The position numbers were made by a program, and so were the translations under genes. From assembly GCA_021229015.1 (NCBI GenBank), contig CM037783.1, positions 8,503,324 to 8,567,323 of the forward strand: DNA of 64,000 bases, read 5' to 3'. Position 1 is the stretch's first letter. The number at the start of each line of letters is the position of its first letter. Below are positions 688 to 64,000 of the stretch, piece after piece. The stretch is from Solen grandis. Taxonomy: Eukaryota; Mollusca; Bivalvia; Adapedonta; Solenidae. The notes below the pieces were generated by a model. It was not told where the DNA came from. It searched no databases and saw only the letters and a list, made by a program, of their open reading frames with translations.

Positions 688-787
688 NNNNNNNNNNNNN
701 NNNNNNNNNNNNNNNNNNNNNNNNNNNNNNNNNNNNNNNNNNNNNNNNNNNNNNNNNNNNNNNNNNNNNNNNNNNNNNNNNNNNNNN
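688..787. other. Assembly gap of exactly 100 N
   Basis: One hundred N characters, the conventional size for a scaffold gap of unknown length. Sequence on the two sides need not be adjacent in the genome. Confidence 0.99.
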
Positions 788-3237: not shown

Positions 3238-3493
3238 GGGCCTCCGTGGCCGAGAGGGTAAAGTCGCTGACTTTAACACTCGTTCAGCCCCTCATCGTGT
3301 GGGTTCGAATCCGGCAGGGTCATTCGATTTTCATGTGAGAAAGCTTTCCAGCTGGCTTGCGGAATGTCGGTGGTTTAACCCGGGTGCCTCTGTGCATTCG
3401 GATTTCCTCCACCCGTAATTAGCTTGACGTCGCTAAATGACTGAAATACTGTCGCAGCGACGGTAAACCCTAAACACACACACACACACACAA
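3238..3493 (+). repeat. V-SINE-type, tRNA-derived SINE (RUDI-like)
   Basis: A nearly complete SINE. The head resembles a tRNA gene: an A-box-like TGGCCGAGAGGGTAAAG near 3246 and a B box GGTTCGAATCC at about 3303. A conserved body follows (AGCTTTCCAGCTGGCTTGCGG and CGGTGGTTTAACCCGGGTG), then a tail region (GACGTCGCTAAATGACTGAAA) and a terminal (CA)n run. Established knowledge: this body is characteristic of the V-SINE family called RUDI, widespread in molluscs. It is one of the best organismal clues in the window. The short open frame crossing it is not a gene. Confidence 0.85.
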
Positions 3494-17153: not shown

Positions 17154-17790
<637 letters not shown>

Positions 17791-18119: not shown

Positions 18120-20138
18120 CGAACAGTGCTAAAACTAAGTTAGTTTTGAGATAGGGTATGTCTTTAACAAAATTCCGCATTATTTATTAATCCTAAATCT
18201 TCTTAGACATACATACTTACGTAGATAATTATGTTTTACGGCAATTATGAAATCAACTTAGCGAGACAACTAAAGTGTAAAGAAAATTTGCGTTTTTTTT
18301 GTTGTTTTCGAGTCATATAAGATTTGTAAAAAGTCATAAAAATGGTATGGATGAGTGTTGGTCCGGTGTCAGGAAAGTGATTGGGGGTTGTAGCCTCCCC
18401 ACTTTTCTCGGGTGATACTGCAGGTGGCAGTACTCATGATATTGTCTCAAGTAGACTCTTCTTTGACTGAAAAACTGCCCAATAAATATTTTTTCTATAT
18501 TATATCATTCTCGTTTCTTTATTTTTTCTGATTTAATCAGTCGGAATATTGATTTTTAGCCATGCCTCTAATCCCCCTTTAAACGTTTTCGCCAAAGGGT
18601 TTTTTCACAAAATTTATTTTTTTTTTTTTTTTTGAGGTTAAATTGAAACTTTATTTCCCCGTATCAAGGATAATGGGGGCCGGGGGGCCTCCCCCGTACC
18701 CTTTCAAAAAAAACTGCATGCATTACGAAAAACATCGATTTTTTTAGTTTACACGTATTATTTTTTTATGACAGTTTTTTTTTTTCCCGAATTAATTAAC
18801 ATCACTTGATGCACATGTAAAAAAAATAATTTGTTCATTTTTCATTATGTTTTTTCCACGCTACGTTAGAAGAAATTAAATCGTACATTTTAAATCAACC
18901 TCAAATCAACTAAAACAATATACACACAAATTTTTATAAAGCCTCTATTTAATTCCCCGATTTAAAACATTATCTGATAATCTTGCCCATATATTTCTTT
19001 TTCTGACCTAAGTTAACTTATATCTAAGAAAATCACTTTTAAAAAAAACTTTTTTTCTTTTTTTTCTAAATCCAAATTGTCCGAAATTGAAATTTTAATG
19101 ACGGTAATGCTTATCAGCTTCTTTCTTTTTATCAAACTTAAAAAATTTTTCTATATTTCCAAATTTTATTTTTCTTCAAAGATAATCATATTTCATAAGT
19201 ACATAAATTTAAAAAAAAACAAGAATGCAAAACTGATATTTTAAAAAAAATTCGTTATTTCCCTTTTTTCATGCTTCGTTACGAACTTAAAAAGTTTTCC
19301 AACAAAAAATAAATAGGGTTTTACAAACAGACAGTTAAAGAATAAGTGAACAAAGTCTCTCTCTCTTTTCGCAAAAAATACATAACCCTCGTTAGAAAGG
19401 TTCATCACGTTTGTGTTCAGTCACACGATGTTTTGAAAAAATTCCCTTGAAATTTCTGGCTTTGACAGAAATGGAGAGTGTTTGACTGTAGATATTTTCT
19501 GTGATTTTTATATTTTGTTTAATTATTGCAAACATTTTTTGCTTAATGAATCATCTATGTAAGAGGGTTTAAAAACTATTTTAGTATGGAATTGCCCAGA
19601 GCAACCTTAAGCTCGACCCCCTGTTTAAAATGGGACGTATACATTTTTGTAAGAAATGAAAAACCATGACCTATTATTAAAACCCCCCGCCCCATAGGGA
19701 TGCTGGGTCTATGACATATCATGGTTCAATGTGAGTAAAATTTTTGCTCGTCCTTTTCTTTTCCCCTCACGTTACCCCCGTAGAAAAGTTTTTCCATGCA
19801 AGTGGATTTTTTTCTGCAAATTTATTTAAACATGAAAAAATAAAAGGATAAATAAATTATGCGATTCTACTAATTTTTCTATTCCAATATGTCATATCTT
19901 AAAACATTCGATTCAAAAAGAATGATGAAATTAATTTTTCCCAATCAGATGCTTTTGGCAAAAAATTTTTAATGTTTTTTTTCTTTTCAAAAAATTGTCA
20001 GTTAAATTTTTTAATACTTAGGGTTTTTATTTTCGGCAAATCCTTCGCAGATAAGGGGCCCAACAGCGCGTTATTAAAATTAAACTCCATAATAGAGAAA
20101 AATCAAAAGGTAGATTGTGCTTCAGTGACACGTCTCTT
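18120..20138. other. AT-rich stretch with increasing homopolymers
   Basis: No gene is seen. From about 18600 rightwards, T, A, C and G homopolymer runs become much more frequent than before. I read this as the start of a zone of lower consensus quality that reaches to 50787. Confidence 0.45.
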
Positions 20139-21944
20139 GCAAACACTTGGTGCTTCAAAAACAGGGTGCTGTCAAACACTTGGGGCTGTCAAACACTGGG
20201 TGCTGCTGTCAAACACTGGGTGCTGCTGTCAAACACTGGGGGCTGTCAAAACGGTGCTGTCAAAACTTGGGCTGCTGTCAAACACTGGGTGCTGTCAAAC
20301 ACTGGTCTGCAAAAATTGGTGCGTCAAACACTGGTTGCGTCAAAAACTGGTGCGTCAAACACTTGGGTGTCAAAAACAGGATCTGTCAAACACGGGGGCT
20401 GTCAAAAACTTGGGGCTTCAAAAATTTTGGGGCTGTCAAACACTGGTTGTGTCAAAAACCCTTTGGGGCTGTCAAACACGGGGGGGTCAAACACTGGGTG
20501 CTGTCAAACACTGGGGGCTGTCAAAAAACTGGGTTTTGGGCAAAACTTGGGGGTGTCAAACACTGGGTGCTGTCAAACCAGGGGCGGGGAAAAAATTGGT
20601 GCTGTCAGGCACTGGGTCTGTCAAAAAGTGGGGGTTGCTGTCAAACACTTGGTGCTGTCAAACACTGGGGGCTGTAAAACTTTGGGGCTGTCAAACACGG
20701 GGTGCTGTCAAAAACTTGGGCTGTCAGGCCTGGGTGCTGTCAAAATGGGTGTTGCTGTCAAACACTTGGTGGTCAAACACAGGGGGGTCAAAAAACTGGG
20801 GGGGTGTCAAAAACTTGGGGTGTCAAAAATTTGGGGCGTCAAACACGGTTGCTGTCAAACACTGGGTGCGTCAAACACTTTCTGTCAAAACACTGGTTGC
20901 TGTCAAACACTTGGTGCGTCAAACACTGGGGGCTGTCAAAAAACAGGGGCGTCAAACACTTGGTGCGTCAGGGACTGGGTGCTGTCAACGTGGGTGTTGC
21001 GTCAAAACTTGGGGCTGTCAAACCTGGTGCTGTCAAACCTTGGTGCTGTCAAACACAGGATGCTGTCAAACATTGGGGCGTCAGGCACGGGGGTGTCAAA
21101 CAGGGGTGTTGCTTAAACACTTTGGGCTGTCAAACACTGGGGGCTGTCAAACATTGGTGCGTTAAAATGGGTGCTGCTTTAACACTGGGGCTGCTGTCAA
21201 ACACTGGGGTTTCAAACACTTTGGGGCTGTCAAAAAGGATGCTGTCAAACCTGGTTGCGTCAAACACTTGGTTGTGTCAAACACTTGGTGCTGTCAAACA
21301 CTTTGGGGATGTCAAACAAGGGGGCTGTCAAACACTTGGGGTGTCAACACTGGGTGCTGTCAAAATTTGGGCGCTGTCAAAAAAATTGGGGCTGCAAACA
21401 CGGGTGCGTCAACACTGGTTGCTGTCAAACCTTGGTGCGTCAAAAACTTGGGGATGTCAAACACGGATGGAAAACCCTTGGGGCTGTCAGGCACGGGGGT
21501 GCTGTCAAACAGTGGGTGCTGCTGTCAAACCTGGGTGCGCAAAAACTTGGTGCTGTCAAAACAGGGTTTCGTCAAACACTTGGTGCGTCAAAATGGGTCT
21601 TCAAAACTGGATGCGTCATACACTTTTGGGGCTGTCAAACACTGGTTGCTGTCAACACTTGGTGCTGTAACACTGGGTCTGTCAAACGTGGCGCTGTCAA
21701 ACACTTGGGGCTGTCAAACACTGGGGGGCTGTCAAACACTTGGGCTGTTAAAAACGGAGCGTCAAACATTGGTGCGTCAAACACTGGGTGCTGTCAATCT
21801 TTGGGACTGTCAAACACTCGGTGCTGTCAAAACGGGGGGCTGCAAACACTTGGTGCGTTAAAAATGGGGGCTGTTAAACTGGGGGCTGTTTTAAAAAATG
21901 GGGTGGTCAAACAAGGGTGCGTATAACATGGGGGCTGTCAAAAT
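20139..21944 (+). repeat. 17-bp minisatellite, about 1.8 kb
   Basis: Tandem copies of a 17-bp unit, consensus close to TGCTGTCAAACACTTGG, with variants such as TGCGTCAAACACTGGG. At 17 bp per unit the block holds on the order of one hundred units. The plus-strand unit contains no stop trinucleotide in any frame. Because 17 is not a multiple of 3, all three plus frames stay open for hundreds of codons. The apparent proteins of up to 397 aa are by-products of the repeat. Confidence 0.93.
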
Positions 21945-24090: not shown

Positions 24091-25770
24091 TGAAAAAAGA
24101 GGCCCATGATGGCCCAAAATCGCTCCCCTGAGAAAAATTTGGTTTGCCCCCAAGGGAAAAAATCTTTTCCCAAATTTTTTTTAAAAAACTGGCCGTAGTT
24201 TTGAAGAAGATGTTTTTTAAAATTTTTTCATTTTTTTTTCTTTTTGTTCCCATGGAAAACAAGAGTTCTACATGGATAAAAATTTTTTTTTAGCAACTTT
24301 TTTGAAGTTTGCCCCAAAGGGAAACATCCCTGAATTTTTAATTAAATCTGCCCCGGGGTTTTTAGAGGAGAGTTTTTTAAAGGTTTCTCTATATACATAA
24401 AGGCAAAAAAGCCCCCCCCCCCGGCGGCCTTTTTTTTTAGGGAAAAGGGGAATAATTTTGCAATTTTGGGAAAAAAAGTTGCCCCAAGGAACATCTTCCC
24501 CCAATTTATTTTAAAATCTGGGGGCCCCGGTTAGTTTTGAAAAAGATGTTTTTTAAAATTTTCCCAATTTTTTTTTTTTTTTGGGCCCAGGAAACCCGAG
24601 TTCTAATGGATCAAGTTTATTTTAGAAAATTTTTTGTGAAGGTTGCCCCAAAAGGAACATTCCGCTAAGTTTAACCCAAAAAATTCTGTTAGTGGTTTCA
24701 GGGGAATTTTGAAAAAATTTTTCCCCAAATATCCCCTAAAAGGCAAAAAGCCCCCCCCCTGGGGGGCCCTTTTTTTTTACGGATCAGAAAAATTTTAGAA
24801 ACCTTTGGAAGAGGTTGGCCCGGGGGAACCCCCCCCACTTTGGGGTTTCCAATTTATTTAAAAATCTGGAGATTTTTGAAGAAGAGGGGTTTTAAAATTT
24901 TTCTTTCTTTTTCTTTTTTTGTTGCCAGGGCAACCAGAGTTCTACAGGATCAATTTTAAATTTTAGCAACTTTTGTGAAGGTTGCCCCAAAGGGTTTCCC
25001 CCCTGCCAATTTTAAATTTCAAATTCTGTCCATTGGTTTCAGAGGAGTGTTTTTTTAAAAGGTTTTTAAATTTTCATAAAAGGGCAAATAAGCCCCCCCC
25101 CTGGGGGGCCATTTTTTTTTCCGGATGGGAATAATTTTAGCAACTTTGGTAGAGGTTGCCCAAAGGAACATCTGTCCCAAATTTTTTTTAAAAATCTGGC
25201 CAGTAGTTTTAAAGGAGATGTTTTTTAAAGTTTTCAAATTATTTTTTCTTTTTGTTGCCATGGCAACCAGAGTTCTTCATGGATAACTTTATTTTGAAAC
25301 TTTTGTAAAGGGTTTGGGACCCAAGGATAAACCCTGCCAAGTTTAATAAAATTTTCTGTCCAGTGGTTTAGAGGAGATTTTGTTTAAAGTTTTCTCTATT
25401 ACATAAAAGGCAAAAAAGGGCCCCGCCCCTGGGGGCCCATTTTTTTTTTACGGATGGGTTTAAAATTTTAGCAACTTTGGTAGAGGTTGCCCCAAAGGAA
25501 CCCATCTGTCCCAAAAATTATTTTAAAAATCTGGCCAGTGGTTTTGAAGGAGAAAAATTTTTAAAGTTTTAAAATTTAAATTTTTTTTTTTGTTGCCATG
25601 GCAACCAGAGTTCTTCATGGATCAACTTTATTTTAGAAAACTTTTTGTAGAGCCTCCCCCAAGGAACATTCCGCCAAGTTTCTTTAAAATTTTGTCCACC
25701 CGTTTCAGAGGAGATTTCGTTTAAAGAAAAATTGTTAAAGACGGACGACGGACGACGACGGACGCCGGGC
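24090..25770 (+). repeat. About 337-bp tandem array, five units
   Basis: The landmark CCATGGCAACCAGAGTTCT (or a close variant) occurs at about 24249, 24587, 24925, 25258 and 25596, so the spacing is 334-338 bp. A second landmark, AAAAAGCCCCCCCC followed by a G/C block, recurs with the same period at about 24411, 24749, 25092 and 25427. Within each unit two related halves begin near AGCAACTTT.GTAGAGGTTGCCC, suggesting an older half-length duplication. Units are similar but carry many single-base length differences. Open frames in the array are not genes. Confidence 0.88.
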
Positions 25771-50787: not shown

Positions 50788-50887
50788 NNNNNNNNNNNNN
50801 NNNNNNNNNNNNNNNNNNNNNNNNNNNNNNNNNNNNNNNNNNNNNNNNNNNNNNNNNNNNNNNNNNNNNNNNNNNNNNNNNNNNNNN
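50788..50887. other. Assembly gap of exactly 100 N
   Basis: One hundred N characters separate the degraded repeat region on the left from the clean gene-bearing tandem array on the right. Contig 3 begins inside a repeat unit, so this array was probably the cause of the assembly break. Confidence 0.99.
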
Positions 50888-50892
50888 GGTAA

Positions 50893-51183
50893 GAGTAAAC
50901 TAACTGTAACTAGAGTTTACTCCAAATGAGGAATGAACTTAATCTCAAGAAAAAGTAATAAAACATGAATAGTGACTGACAAAACAGGTTTTACAGTTAA
51001 GGTTAGGTTAGGGGTAAGGGTTGGAGTAAACTAGTCGCAAAAGAGTTTACTCCAAATGTATGATGCAGAAATTAAAAAATCTCGATAAATGTTTAAAATT
51101 TAAATCGGTACTGAGATGACGGAGGGTTAGAGTTAGGGTATTGGGTTAGGGCTGGAGTAAACTAGAGGTAAATTTACTTGCAG
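50893..51183. repeat. Three spaced inverted repeats with TTAGGG-like linkers (unit 1)
   Basis: Hairpins GAGTAAACT...AGTTTACTC at 50893-50922, GGAGTAAACT...AGTTTACTCC at 51023-51053 and a decayed third at 51154-51183 are spaced about 131 bp apart. Linkers between them contain GTTAGGTTAGGGG and GTTAGGGTATTGGGTTAGGG. By comparison with unit 2 this lies in the 5'UTR intron of the 931-aa gene that should stand to the left, beyond the gap. Confidence 0.85.
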
Positions 51184-51520
51184 ATTGAGGATATGATAAT
51201 CTCGATAAAATAGTTAAAAATTAAAAGTTATGTCCTATAAAAAAATAAGCTTCTAATCATATATTTTTACTTCTATTAACAAACACAGTTTTAATTATGA
51301 TATATTAAGGTCTAAAATTAATAACTCCACAAAAAAAATGAATCGTGAAAGAGAAGTGGAATATATCAATAACAACCAATACTTGTTTGATTATAATTCT
51401 GACGAAATAATAACTACTTTAACTATAAATTAAAATAAATCTATTTCCTCAAAATCACCACGTTATGATATCAATTCAAAGGAAAAGAAAAAAATAATGA
51501 AATGCAAAAGATCAACTTAC

Positions 51521-51798
51521 CTTCAAAAAAGTAGGTAGCACAAAAATCCAGAAATATAAATCACTATCACATCTTTTCACATAAACTTGCAAAGCGTAAC
51601 TGACAAAAGCGAGGAAAAATGTATAGTGAAGTCAGATAGTAAGAGACATATGCCGTAACAACAAATCATTGCACGGAAAAAGATCACGTGACTGTCAGCC
51701 ATTTTGTTTTGGGTCACGTGTTGGGTCATCTGTTGACGGGTCAACATTCGTTTCAAGCCTATACCCTAACCCTAACCCTAACCCTAACCCTAACCCTA
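51521..51798. promoter_or_regulatory. Divergent promoter with paired E-boxes and (CCCTAA)6 (unit 1)
   Basis: Two perfect CACGTG palindromes (51685-51690 and 51715-51720) are exactly 30 bp apart, with a YY1-like GCCATTTTG (51698-51706) between them. On the minus side a 5' splice donor GAAG|GTAAGTTGA ends a presumed 5'UTR exon at 51521. On the plus side a (CCCTAA)6 telomere-type tract runs from 51764 to 51799 and its last A is the A of the small gene's ATG. Promoter activity is inferred from position and motifs. The minus-strand gene it would serve lies beyond the gap. Confidence 0.6.
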
Positions 51799-51799
51799 A
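51764..51799 (+). repeat. (CCCTAA)6 telomere-type tract (unit 1)
   Basis: Six perfect CCCTAA hexamers. The last base is also the first base of the ATG of the small gene. Confidence 0.98.
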
Positions 51800-52519
51800 T
51801 GGACCAAATGTCATACCCAGTCGGACAGAAACAAACTAGTCCTCTCAGCAGCTCAACGCCAGTTCAAAACAAGAAGCAAAGAACTGAAGTTGGCTTCACC
51901 TTTAAGAAGACGATTCCAAGACATCCACATACCCTCAACGACATAAGAGATTCTTCACTGCGATCAAACTTGAAGAAATATTACACCGAAAACTGGACCA
52001 AACAAGAGAAGCTAACCCCTGCGCAAAATGCCTTTGTGCAGTATTTTATGTTGGAGAAGAATAAAGGGTTTTCAGGTAATGATATATTTTGTCTATGCAT
52101 ATATAATAACATATTTAATCTTTATGAAATAAACAAAGTTTCGGGTATATCTGTAATTTCCAGGATGTAGAATACATTCCATAATATGATTCTGAACGTA
52201 CTTATTTTGGTTTGGACTTCAATTGAATTACTTTTATTTTTCAGGCAAAAGATCAGTCATCAACGCACTTTTTTCCGCCGGAGTCAAGGACGGGATGTGG
52301 TGCTCTACTTTTGAGCCGGAAGGAATCAAACATAGTTTTACCGATTACTTGCGAGAAAAGTGTAAGAACCTACAGAAGAAAAAATTGGCAGAACAATCAA
52401 TGCAGGACTTTGCTAATGAATACGTTGCCTCTATGGACGTAGGGCAAATGAGTGGCCCAGTAGATGGCGAATGCAACGACAGAGGTGAAGGATATTCGAC
52501 AAGACAGGACATGGACTAG
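51799..52519 (+). CDS. Small two-exon orphan protein, 183 aa (unit 1)
   Basis: I do not recognise this protein. Exon 1 (51799-52075) and exon 2 (52245-52519) join across a 169-bp intron with canonical ends (TTTCAG|GTAATG at the donor, TTTTTCAG|GC at the acceptor) in phase 1, within Gly93. The first in-frame ATG is formed by the end of the telomere-type tract (CTAATGG). A second, MSYPVGQ, is three codons on. The frame is open upstream but without an ATG. The product is polar and basic: a Ser/Thr/Gln-rich start (residues 1-25), an NKKQR cluster (24-28) and a lysine-rich probable helix (REKCKNLQKKKLAEQ, 129-143). It ends in an acidic Gly/Asp-rich tail. No signal peptide, membrane segment or known catalytic motif is seen. 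Identical sequence in three units despite indels nearby argues that it is a real gene or very recently copied. AATAAA at 52846 could be its polyadenylation signal. Confidence 0.65.
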
Positions 52520-52970
52520 TTATTCTGGCAATAACTATAAAATCTACAAGTTAGATATAACTAAGACTAATATGTTTCACTCAGGTTGTGAAAATAATTT
52601 GTGTTTTGCTTTTCTTTTTACAGTTGCAATTCTTATTTCAATCTTGTCGAATTTGTTATGATTGTGATCATTATTTTTTTTTATTAAATTCTTCAATTTT
52701 TTGTTCATATATTTGAAATTTATAGAAACTAATCATTTTCTTACACATCAATGTTTGTTTTCAAGTGTGCTGATTATTTTCATTTCTTTCACATGATTTT
52801 TGTTAATTGATTGTTAACACTTTAAATTATAAAGCAATTATATTAAATAAATGTAATATTACGTCTTGTCCATGGTTTATACTGCATCGCAGTTATTTCC
52901 AATGATGAATATACTACACTTTCTAATTTTTAGATCAATTTAAACAGAACTGGATTCCTTTAACAATCAC

Positions 52971-53146
52971 TTAGCCCCTCACCGCTGTGGGTTCGATTCC
53001 GGCAGGGTCTCGGATTTTTAAGTGAGGAAGCTTTCCAGCTGGCTTGCGGAAGGTCGGTGGTTTACCCGGGTGCCTCTGCATTCGGGGTTTCCTCCACCTG
53101 TAATTAGCTGGACGTCGCTATATGACCGAAATATTGTCGCACCGAG
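52971..53146 (+). repeat. 5'-truncated V-SINE inside unit 1
   Basis: The segment carries the B box (GGTTCGATTCC), the body words AAGCTTTCCAGCTGGCTTGCGG and CGGTGGTTTACCCGGG, and the tail GACGTCGCTATATGACCGAAA. It matches the SINE at 3238-3493 but lacks the A-box end. It lies between the convergent 3' ends of the two genes and was amplified with the unit. Unit 1 lacks one C that unit 2 has after the B box. Confidence 0.85.
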
Positions 53147-53566
53147 TTACATCTGACGGAGATAGTATTTCAGGTCAATAGAAAAACAAAACGTTTAATC
53201 AATTAAATCACATTAACATTTATTAGAATGCATATTATCATATCATACAAGACATTTGAAATATATTCACTAGTGAAAATATGGTTTAAAAATCAAATAT
53301 AAACATTCATACCCATAACCCCTTACCTGATAAAGTTTATAAGGTATACTCTTTTTTTGCCATTTACACAATTAATTTAAAATCTATTTTTCATTATTTT
53401 TGACATACATGCATTCATATATACATACCTATATAGGTATTGAGTTTCAATGCGGCTTACTCTAAGGCTGACGGTTTGTGTAAGGAATTAATTAATAGTC
53501 CTGACAAAAATACACAATAGTTGGCAATAAATTCAATAAGCCCGAGCTCAAGATTTTGTCCCTGTT

Positions 53567-56362
53567 TCATTTGTTTTTCTTTTTTATTCGCTTCAGTTTT
53601 ACTTTAAATGCTTCGAGGGATCTATCTGGTATTTGCATTTCCCGACAACGTTCTTGATAGTACTGCCATTTCTTAAACAATGTCCACTGTGGATTTGTTG
53701 AATCACTTTCATTAAGAAGACCCAATTCAACTGACGTCCATACGCTGTTACAGCGACTGCTTGGTTTGTGTTTGATCTGAGCTTCCTCTGACTCTGTTGT
53801 TGTTCTTATGCTAAGTTCATAATCCCCTATTCGGTAGGGTTGATCAACGTTGTCGTCACTCTTTGGTACATTTTCTTCTACCACTTGTGTTTTTTCTCTT
53901 ATGTTTGAGGTGTCCTCTGTAGACCTTTTTTTGTCCAATTTTATCGGGATTGAGGGATGAAGGCGGTACAACTTTACTGTATTCACAAATGGGACTTGAA
54001 ATTTGCACTGAATTTGAAGGATCCTGAGGGACGATTGACTGACAGGAAGCTGTCTCTCAACAGAACCTAGCTTTCGATAGTCGACGTACCTTCCAAGTTG
54101 AATCAATGCTAAACAAGAGACAAAGACTAGCACCTTAATCAGGTCAACTTCTTTCAATTGCTGTTCGGCAAGTTTCTCCCAAACAGGCTTTATCCAAGGA
54201 AATGGGTTTTCTCTGTACAATGAACTATGGCAAAGTTTCATTTTCTCCATGCTTGAAACAACAACTGCATGCACCCTATCCACGTCAATACTTCCGTTGT
54301 CCCTTCCTGATATGTCAACAATGGACCAATAACCATACTTATACTCCCAGCACATAACTGCATTTCGACTCTCGTCATGTGACCTAAACGCAGGAAAGTA
54401 ACCAAGAGATAAACTGTTTATACCTTTTTCAATAGATGACTCAACTTTGACCTTTAGATTCTGAAGAAAGGTCCTTAATACGACAAATACCATCGGCCAT
54501 TTTCCCTTCTTAACTGACATCAACCTTTGTATGAGTTCAGCGATTGTGATTCCACCGACTATTTTCTTATTAGCATTTCCGTGTGAAGCTTTCAACAGCA
54601 TTGTGAAATGATCGAGTGTCAGAAACAAATTGCCAATTGAATGAAATTCTTTTAGTAAAGTCATCAAAAGTTTTTTGCCTATGACAGTTTCACTACATCC
54701 AACCAAATTTACGAAACCACTTGCGCTCTCAATCCGACGTTGCGCTGTTATGTTCTTTGTGTACAGACGCAATGGAGGCAATGTAGTTCCATCTATACAA
54801 CAAGCAAAACAGTTTTCCAAAGACAGAAATCCCATTCGGTCTGTGCGGCTACGAGATGGGTACTCTAAACCTGGACCTAGGTTTATGGAATAAATTCTTG
54901 AAGTGCCAGCCATTGGATGTCCCCAGAGAAGTTTTTCCACAGCCAATTCACACTGAAATGTTTTCCAAACACTGTCTATATCACCGGTCCCCTTCTTGGT
55001 CTCAAAGGCTTCAAATAATTCTCGATGCAAATGAAGACCAACACTTCGCAACCTGTATATAATGTTGAAACCTTTCATGAATGGTACAATCATGGAATGG
55101 GTAGCTAGTAGTTGTTCGAGTTTGTCCTGTCGTATTAGGTTTGCTGCGTCAATTTCTTTTCTGATATGTTTCAAGCTTACCACGAACTCTAATCTGCATA
55201 CCCCGTCGCGACATTGGAAAAAGTTGCTTTCAATTTCAGAAAGATATTTCGATGCATCTTTGTAGAGACTTCTCTCACATGGTGTACTTTGAATACCTTT
55301 TACAATCAGTATTGATGCAGAAATAGGATGAACCCGTGTCGTTGGATAACGGTGTGGTAAATCACTGTACATCTGAGCAAATCTGATGTCTTCGGGACAA
55401 ACGTCTCTAAGCAAGGCAGAAATACTGAGATCCCTACCATCCAAAGACGTTTGAAAGTTTGCACATTGTCCAAAGGAAAAGGCAGATATAACTTGGCAGC
55501 GAGGACCAGTCACTTCTTTAATGCCTTGCCGGCTCCAAAAGAGATCCATTGTTCCGGAAGAAATGGCATGACCTACGTGAACACACATCTCTTCCACCGC
55601 TCTCTCATCTGCAATTGGCAGTGGTACTAATCCGCTCCATTTATCTCCAAAACGGAAACTAAACACAATTTTTCTGAAATTTGGAAGTTCGGTCAGTTCT
55701 GTATTTCGCAAAGCGTTTTTAAAACTTTGGAGGATCCTAGCTTCATCTCCTGGTAAGACAAAAACCCTCTTAGCAGCGTTCAAGTTATTCTTTGCTAATG
55801 TTTGTAATGCCTCGCCACGAATCCACATTTTCTTCAATTCTAACTGAAAATTAAATCTCAGTCTCTCCATAAACTGAACAACAAGCTTTTTTTGCAAGTC
55901 GTGTGGATAAGATGAAGCTTCCTTGAAGTCAGGAAGAATTCCAAGCCAGGTCTCCCACTGTCCGTCATATATAAGCTGTGTCCCGACTGCTTCTTTCAAC
56001 ACTCTTAGACTGTTTTCACTATACATTGACAATTTCAAATGCTTCTTTAGAACGGGGAACAGTTTTTTCAATCCAAAAATACCTACTGGCAATAAATCTA
56101 GGTGTCTGAATTTCGACAGAAAACCATCCGCAATGCTTTTCCAGACTATGGTTACTCCATCAATATCAGACTTGAAATCAAGTTCTTCCAGATCTGCTTC
56201 AGATGTTATGTTAGTTCCTCGGACAGATATGTATTTATCACGTAGCAAAAACTGTTCAACACTTTCATACTTCCTAAAGCATTCAGCAAAACTCAAACCA
56301 TTCTCTAACGCTGTGTCTAGCAGATGTAGATTTTCCACCTCATCGTCCTCGGAATCGGCCAT
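53567..56362 (-). CDS. Orphan protein, 931 aa, possible Myb/SANT-like end (unit 1)
   Basis: This is one uninterrupted coding region ending in TGA. I do not recognise the protein. The ATG directly follows a 3' splice site (TTTCAG|ATGG), so an upstream 5'UTR exon is likely. The N-terminus is acidic (MADSEDDEVE). The long middle, residues about 100-800, looks globular with scattered Cys-containing words (FFQCRDGVCRLEF, 381-393; ENCFACCIDG, 516-525). No catalytic signature could be fixed and no transmembrane helix is evident. Residues 810-870 are polar linker. The final 63 residues are basic, with W875 and W893 18 residues apart and RSLEAFKVKLKRIKK (914-928), a pattern resembling a Myb/SANT-type helix-turn-helix. 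That is inference only. The neighbours are the small plus-strand gene of its own unit (convergent) and that of the next unit (divergent). Unit 2 has the same 931-residue protein. Alternatives are a transposon-encoded protein or an amplified host gene. Confidence 0.85.
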   Translation of the reverse strand: MADSEDDEVENLHLLDTALENGLSFAECFRKYESVEQFLLRDKYISVRGTNITSEADLEELDFKSDIDGVTIVWKSIADGFLSKFRHLDLLPVGIFGLKKLFPVLKKHLKLSMYSENSLRVLKEAVGTQLIYDGQWETWLGILPDFKEASSYPHDLQKKLVVQFMERLRFNFQLELKKMWIRGEALQTLAKNNLNAAKRVFVLPGDEARILQSFKNALRNTELTELPNFRKIVFSFRFGDKWSGLVPLPIADERAVEEMCVHVGHAISSGTMDLFWSRQGIKEVTGPRCQVISAFSFGQCANFQTSLDGRDLSISALLRDVCPEDIRFAQMYSDLPHRYPTTRVHPISASILIVKGIQSTPCERSLYKDASKYLSEIESNFFQCRDGVCRLEFVVSLKHIRKEIDAANLIRQDKLEQLLATHSMIVPFMKGFNIIYRLRSVGLHLHRELFEAFETKKGTGDIDSVWKTFQCELAVEKLLWGHPMAGTSRIYSINLGPGLEYPSRSRTDRMGFLSLENCFACCIDGTTLPPLRLYTKNITAQRRIESASGFVNLVGCSETVIGKKLLMTLLKEFHSIGNLFLTLDHFTMLLKASHGNANKKIVGGITIAELIQRLMSVKKGKWPMVFVVLRTFLQNLKVKVESSIEKGINSLSLGYFPAFRSHDESRNAVMCWEYKYGYWSIVDISGRDNGSIDVDRVHAVVVSSMEKMKLCHSSLYRENPFPWIKPVWEKLAEQQLKEVDLIKVLVFVSCLALIQLGRYVDYRKLGSVERQLPVSQSSLRILQIQCKFQVPFVNTVKLYRLHPSIPIKLDKKRSTEDTSNIREKTQVVEENVPKSDDNVDQPYRIGDYELSIRTTTESEEAQIKHKPSSRCNSVWTSVELGLLNESDSTNPQWTLFKKWQYYQERCREMQIPDRSLEAFKVKLKRIKKKNK

Positions 56363-57150
56363 CTGAAATGGATAAAATACAATTAATTAAATAGGAATTT
56401 TGGTAATTGAATTCATATTGATTAATTAACTCCAAATCACAGTTTCAGTTAACCCCTTAAGTGAATCGGGTTAGGGTCTCACGGGTTTTTGAGTTATGGT
56501 TAAGGTTAAGGGTTTGGTAAGAGTAAACTAACTGTAACTAGAGTTTACTCCAAATGAGGAATGAACTTAATCTCAAGAAAAAGTAATAAAACATGAATAG
56601 TGACTGACAAAACAGGTTTTACAGTTAAGGTTAGGTTAGGGGTAAGGGTTGGAGTAAACTAGTCGCAAAAGAGTTTACTCCAAATGTATGATGCAGAAAT
56701 TAAAAAATCTCGATAAATGTTTAAAATTTAAATCGGTACTGAGATGACGGAGGGTTAGAGTTAGGGTATTGGGTTAGGGCTGGAGTAAACTAGAGGTAAA
56801 TTTACTTGCAGATTGAGGATATGATAATCTCGATAAAATAGTTAAAAATTAAAAGTTATGTCCTATAAAAAAATAAGCTTCTAATCATATATTTTTACTT
56901 CTATTAACAAACACAGTTTTAATTATGATATATTAAGGTCTAAAATTAATAACTCCACAATATATATTCAAAAAAGAAAAACTATGACACAATGCTACTT
57001 ATTTGTTCAAAAAAATGAATCGTGAAAGAGAAGTGGAATATATCAATAACAACCAATACTTGTTTGATTATAATTCTGACGAAATAATAACTACTTTAAC
57101 TATAAATTAAAATAAATCTATTTCCTCAAAATCAAAAAAAGTCAACTTAC
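56363..57150 (-). other. Predicted 5'UTR intron of the unit-1 931-aa gene (788 bp)
   Basis: On the minus strand a strong donor GAAG|GTAAGTTGAC has its first intron base at 57150. A pyrimidine-rich acceptor TTTTATCCATTTCAG ends at 56363, directly before the ATG. Both sites recur in the other units. The intron holds TTAGGG-like linkers and the three-hairpin module. There is no transcript evidence. Confidence 0.6.
56519..56811. repeat. Three spaced inverted repeats with TTAGGG-like linkers (unit 2)
   Basis: Hairpin 1 is at 56521-56550 (9-bp arms), hairpin 2 at 56651-56681 (10-bp perfect arms GGAGTAAACT/AGTTTACTCC) and hairpin 3 at 56782-56811 (imperfect). The period is about 131 bp. Linkers before them carry GGGTTAGGGTC, GTTAGGTTAGGGG and TTGGGTTAGGGC. 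The module lies inside the predicted 5'UTR intron of the 931-aa gene. Confidence 0.9.
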
Positions 57151-57428
57151 CTTCAAAAAAGTAGGTAGCACAAAAATCCAGAAATATAAATCACTATCAC
57201 ATCTTTTCACATAAACTTGCAAAGCGTAACTGACAAAAGCGAGGAAAAATGTATAGTGAAGTCAGATAGTAAGAGACATATGCCGTAACAACAAATCATT
57301 GCACGGAAAAAGATCACGTGACTGTCAGCCATTTTGTTTTGGGTCACGTGTTGGGTCATCTGTTGACGGGTCAACATTCGTTTCAAGCCTATACCCTAAC
57401 CCTAACCCTAACCCTAACCCTAACCCTA
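57151..57428. promoter_or_regulatory. Divergent promoter between the 931-aa gene (unit 1) and small gene (unit 2)
   Basis: The 5' exon of the minus-strand 931-aa gene (ending at donor 57151) and the plus-strand small gene (ATG 57429) lie back to back within about 280 bp. Between them are CACGTG at 57315-57320 and 57345-57350 with the GCCATTTTG word between. (CCCTAA)6 spans 57394-57429. A shared promoter would couple the two genes. This is an inference from layout and motifs. Confidence 0.6.
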
Positions 57429-57429
57429 A
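57394..57429 (+). repeat. (CCCTAA)6 telomere-type tract (unit 2)
   Basis: Same tract and same overlap with the start codon as in unit 1. Confidence 0.98.
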
Positions 57430-58149
57430 TGGACCAAATGTCATACCCAGTCGGACAGAAACAAACTAGTCCTCTCAGCAGCTCAACGCCAGTTCAAAAC
57501 AAGAAGCAAAGAACTGAAGTTGGCTTCACCTTTAAGAAGACGATTCCAAGACATCCACATACCCTCAACGACATAAGAGATTCTTCACTGCGATCAAACT
57601 TGAAGAAATATTACACCGAAAACTGGACCAAACAAGAGAAGCTAACCCCTGCGCAAAATGCCTTTGTGCAGTATTTTATGTTGGAGAAGAATAAAGGGTT
57701 TTCAGGTAATGATATATTTTGTCTATGCATATATAATAACATATTTAATCTTTATGAAATAAACAAAGTTTCGGGTATATCTGTAATTTCCAGGATGTAG
57801 AATACATTCCATAATATGATTCTGAACGTACTTATTTTGGTTTGGACTTCAATTGAATTACTTTTATTTTTCAGGCAAAAGATCAGTCATCAACGCACTT
57901 TTTTCCGCCGGAGTCAAGGACGGGATGTGGTGCTCTACTTTTGAGCCGGAAGGAATCAAACATAGTTTTACCGATTACTTGCGAGAAAAGTGTAAGAACC
58001 TACAGAAGAAAAAATTGGCAGAACAATCAATGCAGGACTTTGCTAATGAATACGTTGCCTCTATGGACGTAGGGCAAATGAGTGGCCCAGTAGATGGCGA
58101 ATGCAACGACAGAGGTGAAGGATATTCGACAAGACAGGACATGGACTAG
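57429..58149 (+). CDS. Small two-exon orphan protein, 183 aa (unit 2)
   Basis: Second copy of the 183-aa protein of unit 1, apparently identical. Exon 1 is 57429-57705 and exon 2 is 57875-58149, with the same GT-AG intron and phase. The ATG again overlaps the (CCCTAA)6 tract. The gene stands head to head with the 931-aa gene of unit 1 and tail to tail with that of unit 2. Downstream, after the stop, unit 2 has an extra 75-bp insertion at 58321-58395 that does not touch the coding region. No function can be assigned. Confidence 0.65.
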
Positions 58150-58320
58150 TTATTCTGGCAATAACTATAAAATCTACAAGTTAGATATAACTAAGACTAA
58201 TATGTTTCACTCAGGTTGTGAAAATAATTTGTGTTTTGCTTTTTTTTTACAGTTGCAATTCTTATTTCAATCTTGTCGAATTTGTTATGATTGTGATCAT
58301 TATTTTTTTTTATTAAATTC

Positions 58321-58395
58321 TTGTATCAGCGTTTACTTAAATGATTTAACGGTTCAGATATAGCCTTATTTCTTATATAGATACAACTGTGGGGT
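58321..58395. repeat. Unit-2-specific 75-bp insertion with inverted ends
   Basis: The segment is absent from unit 1. It begins TTGTATC and has GATACAA at 58380-58386, a perfect 7-bp inverted pair. It may be a tiny non-autonomous insertion, or unit 1 may have lost it. Confidence 0.5.
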
Positions 58396-58672
58396 TCAAT
58401 TTTTTGTTCATATATTTGAAATTTATAGAAACTAATCATTTTCTTACACATCAATGTTTGTTTTCAAGTGTGCTGATTATTTTCATTTCTTTCACATGAT
58501 TTTTGTTAATTGATTGTTAACACTTTAAATTATAAAGCAATTATATTAAATAAATGTAATATTACGTCTTGTCCATGGTTTATACTGCATCGCAGTTATT
58601 TCCAATGATGAATATACTACACTTTCTAATTTTTAGATCAATTTAAACAGAACTGGATTCCTTTAACAATCA

Positions 58673-58850
58673 CTTAGCCCCTCACCGCTGTGGGTTCGAT
58701 TCCCGGCAGGGTCTCGGATTTTTAAGTGAGGAAGCTTTCCAGCTGGCTTGCGGAAGGTCGGTGGTTTACCCGGGTGCCTCTGCATTCGGGGTTTCCTCCA
58801 CCTGTAATTAGCTGGACGTCGCTATATGACCGAAATATTGTCGCACCGAG
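58673..58850 (+). repeat. 5'-truncated V-SINE inside unit 2
   Basis: Same insertion and same truncation point as in unit 1, so it predates amplification of the unit. It contains the B box GGTTCGATTCCC and the diagnostic AAGCTTTCCAGCTGGC body. Confidence 0.85.
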
Positions 58851-59341
58851 TTACATCTGACGGAGATAGTATTTCAGGTCAATAGAAAAACAAAACGTTT
58901 AATCAATTAAATCACATTAACATTTATTAGAATGCATATTATCATATCATACAAGACATTTGAAATATATTCACTAGTGAAAATATGGTTTAAAAATCAA
59001 ATATAAACATTCATACCCATAACCCCTTACCTGATAAAGTTTATAAGGTATACTCTTTATACTGAAAAAGGGGTGTTAACTCTAACCCGAACCCATTACT
59101 CCAAACCTTACCCTATATTTAACCATAAATTTTGCCATTTACACAATTAATTTAAAATCTATTTTTCATTATTTTTGACATACATGCATTCATATATACA
59201 TACCTATATAGGTATTGAGTTTCAATGCGGCTTACTCTAAGGCTGACGGTTTGTGTAAGGAATTAATTAATAGTCCTGACAAAAATACACAATAGTTGGC
59301 AATAAATTCAATAAGCCCGAGCTCAAGATTTTGTCCCTGTT

Positions 59342-62137
59342 TCATTTGTTTTTCTTTTTTATTCGCTTCAGTTTTACTTTAAATGCTTCGAGGGATCTAT
59401 CTGGTATTTGCATTTCCCGACAACGTTCTTGATAGTACTGCCATTTCTTAAACAATGTCCACTGTGGATTTGTTGAATCACTTTCATTAAGAAGACCCAA
59501 TTCAACTGACGTCCATACGCTGTTACAGCGACTGCTTGGTTTGTGTTTGATCTGAGCTTCCTCTGACTCTGTTGTTGTTCTTATGCTAAGTTCATAATCC
59601 CCTATTCGGTAGGGTTGATCAACGTTGTCGTCACTCTTTGGTACATTTTCTTCTACCACTTGTGTTTTTTCTCTTATGTTTGAGGTGTCCTCTGTAGACC
59701 TTTTTTTGTCCAATTTTATCGGGATTGAGGGATGAAGGCGGTACAACTTTACTGTATTCACAAATGGGACTTGAAATTTGCACTGAATTTGAAGGATCCT
59801 GAGGGACGATTGACTGACAGGAAGCTGTCTCTCAACAGAACCTAGCTTTCGATAGTCGACGTACCTTCCAAGTTGAATCAATGCTAAACAAGAGACAAAG
59901 ACTAGCACCTTAATCAGGTCAACTTCTTTCAATTGCTGTTCGGCAAGTTTCTCCCAAACAGGCTTTATCCAAGGAAATGGGTTTTCTCTGTACAATGAAC
60001 TATGGCAAAGTTTCATTTTCTCCATGCTTGAAACAACAACTGCATGCACCCTATCCACGTCAATACTTCCGTTGTCCCTTCCTGATATGTCAACAATGGA
60101 CCAATAACCATACTTATACTCCCAGCACATAACTGCATTTCGACTCTCGTCATGTGACCTAAACGCAGGAAAGTAACCAAGAGATAAACTGTTTATACCT
60201 TTTTCAATAGATGACTCAACTTTGACCTTTAGATTCTGAAGAAAGGTCCTTAATACGACAAATACCATCGGCCATTTTCCCTTCTTAACTGACATCAACC
60301 TTTGTATGAGTTCAGCGATTGTGATTCCACCGACTATTTTCTTATTAGCATTTCCGTGTGAAGCTTTCAACAGCATTGTGAAATGATCGAGTGTCAGAAA
60401 CAAATTGCCAATTGAATGAAATTCTTTTAGTAAAGTCATCAAAAGTTTTTTGCCTATGACAGTTTCACTACATCCAACCAAATTTACGAAACCACTTGCG
60501 CTCTCAATCCGACGTTGCGCTGTTATGTTCTTTGTGTACAGACGCAATGGAGGCAATGTAGTTCCATCTATACAACAAGCAAAACAGTTTTCCAAAGACA
60601 GAAATCCCATTCGGTCTGTGCGGCTACGAGATGGGTACTCTAAACCTGGACCTAGGTTTATGGAATAAATTCTTGAAGTGCCAGCCATTGGATGTCCCCA
60701 GAGAAGTTTTTCCACAGCCAATTCACACTGAAATGTTTTCCAAACACTGTCTATATCACCGGTCCCCTTCTTGGTCTCAAAGGCTTCAAATAATTCTCGA
60801 TGCAAATGAAGACCAACACTTCGCAACCTGTATATAATGTTGAAACCTTTCATGAATGGTACAATCATGGAATGGGTAGCTAGTAGTTGTTCGAGTTTGT
60901 CCTGTCGTATTAGGTTTGCTGCGTCAATTTCTTTTCTGATATGTTTCAAGCTTACCACGAACTCTAATCTGCATACCCCGTCGCGACATTGGAAAAAGTT
61001 GCTTTCAATTTCAGAAAGATATTTCGATGCATCTTTGTAGAGACTTCTCTCACATGGTGTACTTTGAATACCTTTTACAATCAGTATTGATGCAGAAATA
61101 GGATGAACCCGTGTCGTTGGATAACGGTGTGGTAAATCACTGTACATCTGAGCAAATCTGATGTCTTCGGGACAAACGTCTCTAAGCAAGGCAGAAATAC
61201 TGAGATCCCTACCATCCAAAGACGTTTGAAAGTTTGCACATTGTCCAAAGGAAAAGGCAGATATAACTTGGCAGCGAGGACCAGTCACTTCTTTAATGCC
61301 TTGCCGGCTCCAAAAGAGATCCATTGTTCCGGAAGAAATGGCATGACCTACGTGAACACACATCTCTTCCACCGCTCTCTCATCTGCAATTGGCAGTGGT
61401 ACTAATCCGCTCCATTTATCTCCAAAACGGAAACTAAACACAATTTTTCTGAAATTTGGAAGTTCGGTCAGTTCTGTATTTCGCAAAGCGTTTTTAAAAC
61501 TTTGGAGGATCCTAGCTTCATCTCCTGGTAAGACAAAAACCCTCTTAGCAGCGTTCAAGTTATTCTTTGCTAATGTTTGTAATGCCTCGCCACGAATCCA
61601 CATTTTCTTCAATTCTAACTGAAAATTAAATCTCAGTCTCTCCATAAACTGAACAACAAGCTTTTTTTGCAAGTCGTGTGGATAAGATGAAGCTTCCTTG
61701 AAGTCAGGAAGAATTCCAAGCCAGGTCTCCCACTGTCCGTCATATATAAGCTGTGTCCCGACTGCTTCTTTCAACACTCTTAGACTGTTTTCACTATACA
61801 TTGACAATTTCAAATGCTTCTTTAGAACGGGGAACAGTTTTTTCAATCCAAAAATACCTACTGGCAATAAATCTAGGTGTCTGAATTTCGACAGAAAACC
61901 ATCCGCAATGCTTTTCCAGACTATGGTTACTCCATCAATATCAGACTTGAAATCAAGTTCTTCCAGATCTGCTTCAGATGTTATGTTAGTTCCTCGGACA
62001 GATATGTATTTATCACGTAGCAAAAACTGTTCAACACTTTCATACTTCCTAAAGCATTCAGCAAAACTCAAACCATTCTCTAACGCTGTGTCTAGCAGAT
62101 GTAGATTTTCCACCTCATCGTCCTCGGAATCGGCCAT
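59342..62137 (-). CDS. Orphan protein, 931 aa, possible Myb/SANT-like end (unit 2)
   Basis: Second full copy of the 931-aa protein, with no residue difference from unit 1 that I could see. It has the same uninterrupted frame, the same splice-acceptor-like TTTCAG before the ATG and the same TGA stop. Its predicted 5'UTR intron runs 62138-62971 (834 bp, longer than the 788 bp of unit 1 because an A-rich segment is retained). Its 5' exon faces the small gene of unit 3. Retention of a 2.8-kb open frame in two units whose flanks differ by several indels of 45-75 bp suggests very recent copying, gene conversion, or selection on the protein. Function is unknown. The domain remarks for unit 1 apply. 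Confidence 0.85.
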   Translation of the reverse strand: MADSEDDEVENLHLLDTALENGLSFAECFRKYESVEQFLLRDKYISVRGTNITSEADLEELDFKSDIDGVTIVWKSIADGFLSKFRHLDLLPVGIFGLKKLFPVLKKHLKLSMYSENSLRVLKEAVGTQLIYDGQWETWLGILPDFKEASSYPHDLQKKLVVQFMERLRFNFQLELKKMWIRGEALQTLAKNNLNAAKRVFVLPGDEARILQSFKNALRNTELTELPNFRKIVFSFRFGDKWSGLVPLPIADERAVEEMCVHVGHAISSGTMDLFWSRQGIKEVTGPRCQVISAFSFGQCANFQTSLDGRDLSISALLRDVCPEDIRFAQMYSDLPHRYPTTRVHPISASILIVKGIQSTPCERSLYKDASKYLSEIESNFFQCRDGVCRLEFVVSLKHIRKEIDAANLIRQDKLEQLLATHSMIVPFMKGFNIIYRLRSVGLHLHRELFEAFETKKGTGDIDSVWKTFQCELAVEKLLWGHPMAGTSRIYSINLGPGLEYPSRSRTDRMGFLSLENCFACCIDGTTLPPLRLYTKNITAQRRIESASGFVNLVGCSETVIGKKLLMTLLKEFHSIGNLFLTLDHFTMLLKASHGNANKKIVGGITIAELIQRLMSVKKGKWPMVFVVLRTFLQNLKVKVESSIEKGINSLSLGYFPAFRSHDESRNAVMCWEYKYGYWSIVDISGRDNGSIDVDRVHAVVVSSMEKMKLCHSSLYRENPFPWIKPVWEKLAEQQLKEVDLIKVLVFVSCLALIQLGRYVDYRKLGSVERQLPVSQSSLRILQIQCKFQVPFVNTVKLYRLHPSIPIKLDKKRSTEDTSNIREKTQVVEENVPKSDDNVDQPYRIGDYELSIRTTTESEEAQIKHKPSSRCNSVWTSVELGLLNESDSTNPQWTLFKKWQYYQERCREMQIPDRSLEAFKVKLKRIKKKNK

Positions 62138-62971
62138 CTGAAATGGATAAAATACAATTAATTAAATAGGAATTTTGGTAATTGAATTCATATTGATTAA
62201 TTAACTCCAAATCACAGTTTCAGTTAACCCTTAAGTGAATCGGGTTAGGGTCTCACGGGTTTTTGAGTTATGGTTAAGGTTAAGGGTTTGGTAAGAGTAA
62301 ACTAACTGTAACTAGAGTTTACTCCAAATGAGGAATGAACTTAATCTCAAGAAAAAGTAATAAAACATGAATAGTGACTGACAAAACAGGTTTTACAGTT
62401 AAGGTTAGGTTAGGGGTAAGGGTTGGAGTAAACTAGTCGCAAAAGAGTTTACTCCAAATGTATGATGCAGAAATTAAAAAATCTCGATAAATGTTTAAAA
62501 TTTAAATCGGTACTGAGATGACGGAGGGTTAGAGTTAGGGTATTGGGTTAGGGCTGGAGTAAACTAGAGGTAAATTTACTTGCAGATTGAGGATATGATA
62601 ATCTCGATAAAATAGTTAAAAATTAAAAGTTATGTCCTATAAAAAAATAAGCTTCTAATCATATATTTTTACTTCTATTAACAAACACAGTTTTAATTAT
62701 GATATATTAAGGTCTAAAATTAATAACTCCACAATATATATTCAAAAAAGAAAAACTATGACACAATGCTACTTATTTGTTCAAAAAAATGAATCGTGAA
62801 AGAGAAGTGGAATATATCAATAACAACCAATACTTGTTTGATTATAATTCTGACGAAATAATAACTACTTTAACTATAAATTAAAATAAATCTATTTCCT
62901 CAAAATCACCACGTTATGATATCAATTCAAAGGAAAAGAAAAAAATAATGAAATGCAAAAGATCAACTTAC
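62138..62971 (-). other. Predicted 5'UTR intron of the unit-2 931-aa gene (834 bp)
   Basis: Same donor (GAAG|GTAAGTTGA, first intron base 62971) and acceptor as in unit 1. Hairpins lie at 62295-62324, 62425-62455 and 62556-62585, with TTAGGG-like linkers. Confidence 0.6.
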
Positions 62972-63201
62972 CTTCAAAAAAGTAGGTAGCACAAAAATCC
63001 AGAAATATAAATCACTATCACATCTTTTCACATAAACTTGCAAAGCGTAACTGACAAAAGCGAGGAAAAATGTATAGTGAAGTCAGATAGTAAGAGACAT
63101 ATGCCGTAACAACAAATCATTGCACGGAAAAAGATCACGTGACTGTCAGCCATTTTGTTTTGGGTCACGTGTTGGGTCATCTGTTGACGGGTCTGGACCA
63201 A
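62972..63201. promoter_or_regulatory. Divergent promoter without telomere tract (unit 3)
   Basis: CACGTG at 63136-63141 and 63166-63171, again 30 bp apart around GCCATTTTG. The sequence passes from GACGGGTC straight to TGGACC, so the 57 bp including (CCCTAA)6 are absent. The promoter core is otherwise unchanged. Confidence 0.55.
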
Positions 63202-63913
63202 ATGTCATACCCAGTCGGACAGAAACAAACTAGTCCTCTCAGCAGCTCAACGCCAGTTCAAAACAAGAAGCAAAGAACTGAAGTTGGCTTCACCTTTAAG
63301 AAGACGATTCCAAGACATCCACATACCCTCAACGACATAAGAGATTCTTCACTGCGATCAAACTTGAAGAAATATTACACCGAAAACTGGACCAAACAAG
63401 AGAAGCTAACCCCTGCGCAAAATGCCTTTGTGCAGTATTTTATGTTGGAGAAGAATAAAGGGTTTTCAGGTAATGATATATTTTGTCTATGCATATATAA
63501 TAACATATTTAATCTTTATGAAATAAACAAAGTTTCGGGTATATCTGTAATTTCCAGGATGTAGAATACATTCCATAATATGATTCTGAACGTACTTATT
63601 TTGGTTTGGACTTCAATTGAATTACTTTTATTTTTCAGGCAAAAGATCAGTCATCAACGCACTTTTTTCCGCCGGAGTCAAGGACGGGATGTGGTGCTCT
63701 ACTTTTGAGCCGGAAGGAATCAAACATAGTTTTACCGATTACTTGCGAGAAAAGTGTAAGAACCTACAGAAGAAAAAATTGGCAGAACAATCAATGCAGG
63801 ACTTTGCTAATGAATACGTTGCCTCTATGGACGTAGGGCAAATGAGTGGCCCAGTAGATGGCGAATGCAACGACAGAGGTGAAGGATATTCGACAAGACA
63901 GGACATGGACTAG
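63202..63913 (+). CDS. Small two-exon orphan protein, unit 3, start shifted
   Basis: Third copy of the small gene. Loss of the 57 bp removes the ATG that overlaps the telomere tract in units 1 and 2. The first in-frame ATG is now the one encoding MSYPVGQ, three codons further on, giving a predicted 180 aa. Exon 1 is 63202-63469 and exon 2 is 63639-63913, with the same intron ends. The 57-bp change is a multiple of three, so the open frame leading in from upstream is kept, although no ATG lies in it. The coding sequence downstream is the same as in the other units. Confidence 0.6.
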
Positions 63914-64000
63914 TTATTCTGGCAATAACTATAAAATCTACAAGTTAGATATAACTAAGACTAATATGTTTCACTCAGGTTGTGAAAATAATTTGTGTTT

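Follow-up and report, generated by a model that had tools for sequence, protein, structure and literature searches.

The window analysed here, a stretch of 64,000 nucleotides of the Solen grandis assembly (C7:8503324-8567323), ends in near-identical tandem units carrying two protein-coding genes and TTAGGG repeats, which raises the question of what such a unit is and how it came to be repeated. The earlier note had described three successive units and proposed either a subtelomeric gene amplification or a new type of telomere-associated mobile element. Having searched the whole assembly (1.32 Gb, 811 contigs), we consider it highly probable that the units belong to a telomere-bounded element family. 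Our best reading, held with about even confidence, is that they represent a telomere-dwelling protein-coding repeat element that spread by recombination through TTAGGG.

The array in the window and its two genes

Self-BLAST of the window delineates a head-to-tail, TTAGGG-bounded array at 50888..64000, with a unit spacing of 5.63-5.78 kb and aligned blocks that are 99.6-100% identical. The array is part of a 31-kb contig flanked by 100-N gaps at window 50788-50887 and C7:8585204-8585303, and because of these gaps on both sides its position at C7:8.55 Mb is owed to scaffolding alone. A further 100-N gap lies at window 688-787, and no sequence connects the 50-kb contig between the two window gaps with the array contig. 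The array continues past the window end, amounting to six copies of gene 1 and five of gene 2 in the ~31-kb contig, one of the five gene-2 copies having an internal deletion. The window itself contains three copies of gene 1 and two of gene 2. Thus, the tandem array described previously is real as assembled and extends beyond what was described, but the window end interrupts its third unit, so that only two copies of gene 2 fall inside the window.

Two exact (TTAGGG)6 tracts lie between units on the minus strand, one at 51764..51799, reading CCCTAA on the plus strand with the G-rich strand along the minus strand, and one at 57394..57429, as the earlier note had stated. In gene-2 orientation, unit 1 (51800..57393, minus strand) extends from a constant left end, TATAGGCTTGAAACG at 57393, to a right end, TTTGGTCCA at 51800, where it runs into TTAGGG. 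Unit 2 (57430..63193, minus strand) starts at E22, its first 21 bases and the preceding tract being missing. The units are distinguished by discrete segments of 48-72 bp and almost no substitutions, with differing segments found by self-BLAST at window 51332-51333, 57134-57137, 58323-58394 and 59059-59129; these differences could partly be assembly noise. The unit spacer contains a SINE-like repeat (52956..53180) with a tRNA B-box-like motif, GGTTCGATTCC, and a related copy, 87% identical, is found at window 3271-3460. Other repeats of the window are a run of 116 G at 17154-17269, probably a sequencing or assembly artefact, a GC-rich ~16-bp tandem repeat (CAAACACTGGGTGCTGT) at 20140-21879, and a tandem repeat of 338-bp period with 2.4 copies at 24916-25726. 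The sole other long frame of the window (397 aa, 19972-21165) overlaps the CAAACACTGGGTGCTGT repeat and is probably spurious.

Gene 2 is an unbroken minus-strand frame of 931 aa at 53567..56362 in unit 1 and at 59342..62137 in unit 2, and the two proteins are identical, so that the long intact gene reported before is borne out twice. At a threshold of 250 aa, gene 2 accounts for the only ATG frames of the array. A putative non-coding first exon or promoter of gene 2 was placed from the sequence at the left end of the unit (57151..57393, minus strand), with a CACGTG box, a donor AAG/GTAAGT at 57150 and an acceptor TTTCAG beside the ATG at 56362. Gene 1, on the plus strand, is predicted in unit 1 at 51799..52519 as two exons (51799-52075 and 52245-52519) separated by a GT-AG intron and encoding 183 aa. 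The second copy (57429..58149) was located by self-BLAST and sequence prediction. The third (63202..63913) has neither telomere tract nor first ATG, the latter lost with the missing tract, and begins at the next in-frame Met at 63202. The spliced structure given in the earlier note is retained as a prediction for the window, but the 183-aa form lacks the 5' part of a longer gene found in other copies; adding the N-terminal piece from those copies brings it to 277 aa. A protein search with the 183-aa form yielded 18 candidates, none at E ≤ 1; the longer form has a coiled-coil-like N-terminus and weak matches only, some of them to coiled-coil families.

Gene 2 has 31 protein relatives, 30 of them near-full-length at 36-51% identity, and a profile search built from their alignment returned the same 31 proteins, with 7999 candidates scored each time. 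Neither a significant family match in Pfam, NCBIfam, PHROG or PDB nor a significant reverse transcriptase (RT), DDE, YR or other enzyme domain was found for gene 2, the Y' helicase family was not matched significantly in Pfam, NCBIfam or PDB, and neither of the two proteins matches a reverse transcriptase. These searches agree with the earlier view that the proteins fall into no recognised family and that the unit fits neither a retrotransposon nor a classical DNA transposon. No gene-2 relatives were found in the viral contigs or in the bacterial and archaeal genome contigs searched. The organism-named relatives come from the bivalve Mactra antiquata and from a Candidatus Thiodiazotropha MAG, the latter presumably contamination from a bivalve host. 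The Mactra antiquata relative has the locus tag 000001, and the larger of its two contigs measures 66.6 Mb; this tag hints at a contig end.

The gene-2 protein is conserved along its length except for a linker near 820-860, which is followed by a conserved C-terminal module. Searched alone, the module gave non-significant matches only, some of them to families of helix-turn-helix type, with Cdc6_C matched by 4 of 17 members (best E 0.024) and GeBP-like, HTH_Tnp_1 and RFX by one member each, besides a match to pyrrolysine-tRNA ligase (E 0.071). A helix-turn-helix type is possible for this module; a Myb domain, as first read by eye, was dropped considering that its matches are non-significant. 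Weak single-protein matches to heme oxygenase (E 0.097), MnmH (E 0.011) and formylmethanofuran dehydrogenase (E 0.13) were likewise discounted, as was RXYLT1_C (E 0.0053), seen in 1 of the 31 relatives. Among recent copies, the six matches carrying eight or more changes together show 29 silent and 71 replacing substitutions, numbers that are uninformative and give no sign of selection at this scale. Judging from sequence conservation, the 30 near-full-length relatives would imply long-term selection; selection on gene 2 is thus deduced from the conservation of distant relatives and not from recent copies.

Copies and junctions across the genome

A DNA search with gene 2 identified at least 43 matches of 97-100% identity on ten scaffolds (C4, C6, C7, C8, C12, C13, C16, C17, C18 and C19), a lower bound, as 40 of 68 candidates were scored, in which some matches are pieces of one copy. 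The corresponding search with gene 1 gave 41 matches and added C3 and C9; its diverged copies are 76-91% identical, and at C18:27.035 Mb no gene-2 match was found beside a 76%-identical gene 1. Ten gene-2 copies are open through 930-931 residues without a stop, and many others contain stops or frameshifts. Nine groups were read (the window array on C7, two on C16, two on C6, and those on C8, C7:17.04, C19 and C4), together with parts of C17 and of the C16 start, leaving out the arrays on C12, C13 and C18. Unit spacing ranges from 3.9 to 9.8 kb across arrays, being roughly constant inside an array and specific to the locus. For 15 near-complete gene-2 copies at the loci read, shorter copies being left out, median divergence was 0.036% within arrays (12 pairs) and 0.21% between them (93 pairs).

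The two ends of the unit behave differently. In 26 of the 32 left ends read, the unit starts at one and the same base immediately after TTAGGG; 25 of these begin with TATAGGC and one with TATGGGC. Three more are joined to telomere-like repeats with small changes, and the remaining three have no tract, namely E22 in the window array, E12 at C16:41.5 and E9 on C17; two further arrays start inside a unit, at a gap. Copies at several loci with sharp ends, which the earlier note had named as evidence in favour of its proposal, are thus present: the copies lie on ten scaffolds, and most of the left ends read are sharp. Right ends, by contrast, vary, with six clean truncation points (E5592, ~E4105, E2227, E2973, E2135 and E2874) and two further ends just past E4700. 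These truncations enter TTAGGG via overlaps of 1-3 nt, much as telomerase healing may produce them. One E5592 end joins the next unit without a tract and another precedes a gap; at C16:48.96 the last copy is followed by ~640 bp of TTAGGG. The truncation at E2973 is present twice at C16:41.5, indicating that a truncated unit was later amplified there. Longer copies (C7:17.04, C8, C4 and C17) reach about 6.9 kb or more; they extend more than 1 kb past the end of the window unit, or to the end of the sequence, and carry the gene-1 N-terminus, and those that are complete end in 164-170 bp subrepeats containing TTAGGG. Because these copies extend past its end, the 5.6-kb unit of the window is a truncated form. 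No inverted repeats pairing the unit ends occur among 25 of 49 pairs listed, the longest inverted repeats being TTAGGG-like stretches of the left region and the tract.

Beyond the apparently healed ends, the TTAGGG leads into repeats with a fixed start. One (CCAGGGGCATCTC / CCAGGGGCATCTCATACAAAGGCC) is found at C16:41.5 and C6:22.99 Mb with 98% identity over 1.3 kb, and another (TATAGTTTTCGAG) at C16:48.96 and on C4 with 86% identity over 187 bp. The arrays at C6:22.99, C8 and C19 share a 158-bp satellite as their left flank, which breaks off at a different point in each case and gives way to TTAGGG, and at the left end of C4 a 75%-identical form of this satellite fills at least half of the 1 kb read.

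The link to telomere repeats

Perfect (TTAGGG)6 occurs in the assembly as 189 overlapping matches, the reversed control giving 0. The 100 matches listed of these 189 fall into nine clusters, every one of which is part of the element family: six belong to family A, that of the window (C4, C6:22.99, C6:69.08, C7:8.55, C7:59.0 and C12), and three to family B (C1, C6:15.14 and C16:2.23). Left ends were seen at the listed clusters on C1, C4, C6 (three), C7 (two) and C16, and the C12 cluster was assigned solely from tract-to-gene positions and spacing. In family B, an open gene-2 frame of 940 aa lies at C16:2232851 between two tracts ~10 kb apart, adjoined by a second such frame at C16:2242821, whose far tract is not among the matches listed, and a frame of 703 aa lies between tracts at C6:15143133. 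These frames are 34-35% identical to relative P0017, a value that is not a direct comparison of the A and B proteins. The family-B left end also begins with TATAGGC after TTAGGG and has a CACGTG box and a TTACGG stretch in common with family A. As the full alignment of the two left ends scores 121, barely above the maximum of 118.5 in 200 shuffles, the shared terminus comes down to TATAGGC and two short blocks. Since this arrangement recurs in a strongly diverged family whose protein is conserved, the link to telomere repeats seems to be maintained by the element and not by chance.

Other diverged gene-2 relatives are found at C5:26101391-26104159 (intact, 957 aa), C5:33313257-33315578 (open, 806 aa) and C19:36908553-36911111. 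For C5, with its two relatives, no (TTAGGG)6 is among the matches listed, and the 2 kb upstream of the first contain no tract; some 41 kb separate this 957-aa relative from the family-B left end located at C5:26144825. The C19 relative likewise has no known tract, the C19 part of the list not being shown. The two proteins did not prove to be ordinary host genes in a conserved non-telomeric locus, the outcome that the earlier note had opposed to its own proposal, although these C5 and C19 relatives are without a known tract.

A location of the arrays at chromosome ends is likely. The sole chromosome-end position seen in the assembly is that of C17, which breaks off within a unit oriented as predicted; the other arrays are assembled internally, many of them beside gaps, some pointing toward the nearest end and others away from it. 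This mixed direction either counts against a simple end-dwelling reading or reflects scaffolding. In a sample of 13 chromosome ends, 1 kb each, no TTAGGG array was present, implying that true telomeres seem to be mostly missing from the assembly. The proposal of a subtelomeric amplification or a telomere-associated mobile element is supported in part: the evidence favours telomere association and spread, with an end position seen in C17 only, and any self-transposition would be hypothetical.

Modes of spread and known systems

We judge the chances about equal that the element was copied by recombination at chromosome ends, and regard insertion driven by its own protein as a less likely alternative. 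In this view the constant left side of a unit adjoins (TTAGGG)n and the unit faces the telomere, with gene 2 oriented like the G-rich strand of the TTAGGG repeats; at the left end would lie the first exon and promoter tentatively assigned to gene 2. Chromosome ends could then gain copies via recombination or break-induced copying with shared TTAGGG tracts, which would result in near-identical head-to-tail arrays, while the exposed distal end would be eroded and re-capped by telomerase, giving variable right ends. The 931-aa protein, hypothetically acting on DNA, and its coiled-coil-like partner encoded by gene 1 may bind or recombine telomeric DNA. Recombination at ends fits the polarity of the units, the same-direction tracts, the healed truncations and the homogenised arrays. 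Counting against it are the internal arrays and their mixed direction, the sampled chromosome ends lacking TTAGGG arrays, the left ends without tracts, the C5 relatives and the frameshifted copies; arrays and tracts could also be partly mis-assembled.

The main competitor is a mobile element with TTAGGG repeats as its specific target, inserting by its own machinery, with gene 2 as a novel recombinase or endonuclease and right truncation as a consequence of incomplete insertion. The TATAGGC terminus shared by families A and B despite strongly diverged gene 2, the intact and conserved gene 2 itself, its copies on ten scaffolds and the short overlaps at truncation points speak for such an element. 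The absence of a significant RT, DDE, YR or other enzyme domain, of end-pairing inverted repeats among the pairs listed and of a fixed right end, together with the weak A/B left-end alignment, makes it doubtful, though possible. A bolder version, which we consider possible but less likely than not, is a new bivalve superfamily of telomere-specific DNA elements with neither RT nor known transposase, in which the 931-aa protein and its coiled-coil partner would recognise TTAGGG or the TATAGGC terminus and attach copies, and telomerase would heal distal truncations.

An ordinary subtelomeric host gene cluster, passively amplified with telomere repeats and with a host function unrelated to telomeres, would accommodate the C5 and C19 relatives as well as the seemingly unconstrained substitutions among copies. 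Since the family accounts for every listed (TTAGGG)6 cluster and the arrangement recurs in a diverged family, indicating a lasting link to telomere repeats, we regard this as improbable. The polarity, with a constant end at telomere repeats and the other end truncated, matches that of end-attached retroelements as outlined in the accessible portion of PMC5537684, and would be explained by a HeT-A-like element retro-copied by an RT acting in trans, in which case the constant left end would correspond to the 3' end of the RNA. Gene 1, however, would be sense in such an RNA and yet keeps its predicted intron, and the left end has no poly(A), so this alternative is very unlikely; retrotransposition in general is disfavoured by the retained introns, as predicted, and by the RT that was not found. 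Duplication of a single locus by the assembler would agree with array contigs adjoining gaps and with discrete indels between units of near-zero substitution. It appears hardly credible given that each array has its own flanks, spacings and truncation points, that several are joined gap-free to satellite or other sequence, and that a homologous protein family exists elsewhere.

Returning to the telomere-dwelling element copied by recombination, if this reading is true, an animal with TTAGGG telomeres has part of its chromosome ends made up of a two-gene element that bears no relation to retrotransposons, and a protein family present in several lineages has kept its tie to telomere repeats ever since families A and B diverged. 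The system would then be a natural Y'- or ALT-like amplification outside yeast and mutants, and a test case both for selfish or helper genes living at telomeres and for a large orphan protein family. It would also serve as a warning that telomeric contigs of this kind may end up scaffolded into chromosome interiors.

The portions of the open-access literature available to us on mollusc and bivalve telomere elements, telomere-specific DNA transposons and clam subtelomeres do not report this element. As far as the excerpts of PMC8869645 describe them, Dada DNA transposons are DNA elements confined to a repeated target; the Solen element shares this idea of confinement, unlike Dada matching no transposase family and showing no end-pairing inverted repeats, and it also differs from cut-and-paste DNA transposons in that no terminal inverted repeats appear among the 25 of 49 pairs listed; a target-site duplication would have to be sought within a target that already consists of tandem repeats. 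TRAS/SART, Athena/Terminons and Giardia Gil, according to the part of PMC5537684 at hand, have telomere-repeat junctions, one-way orientation and one truncated end. The Solen units likewise have a constant end at telomere repeats and a truncated other end, and differ from these telomeric retroelements in that no RT was found, the predicted intron is retained and poly(A) is absent. Saccharomyces Y', in the sections of PMC11042809 consulted, is a conserved unit of 5.2-6.7 kb with two large ORFs that lies in tandem beside telomere repeats and is amplified in type I survivors with very short TG1-3 tracts. Similarly, the Solen arrays consist of tandem protein-coding units separated by telomere tracts; unlike Y', they reside in an animal host, have no helicase or other significant match, and combine a constant end with healed truncations. 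In C. elegans, as recounted in the accessible text of PMC4595603, TALT1 and TALT2 are blocks between same-direction telomere repeats that spread to other chromosome ends, TALT2 being in tandem and TALT1 measuring 1.5 kb, including a host gene's promoter and first exon, and being amplified in worms from which telomerase had been deleted. Here, too, same-direction telomere repeats flank a block at several loci, and in contrast to TALT, so far as that text goes, the Solen units hold whole conserved genes and represent at least two old families.
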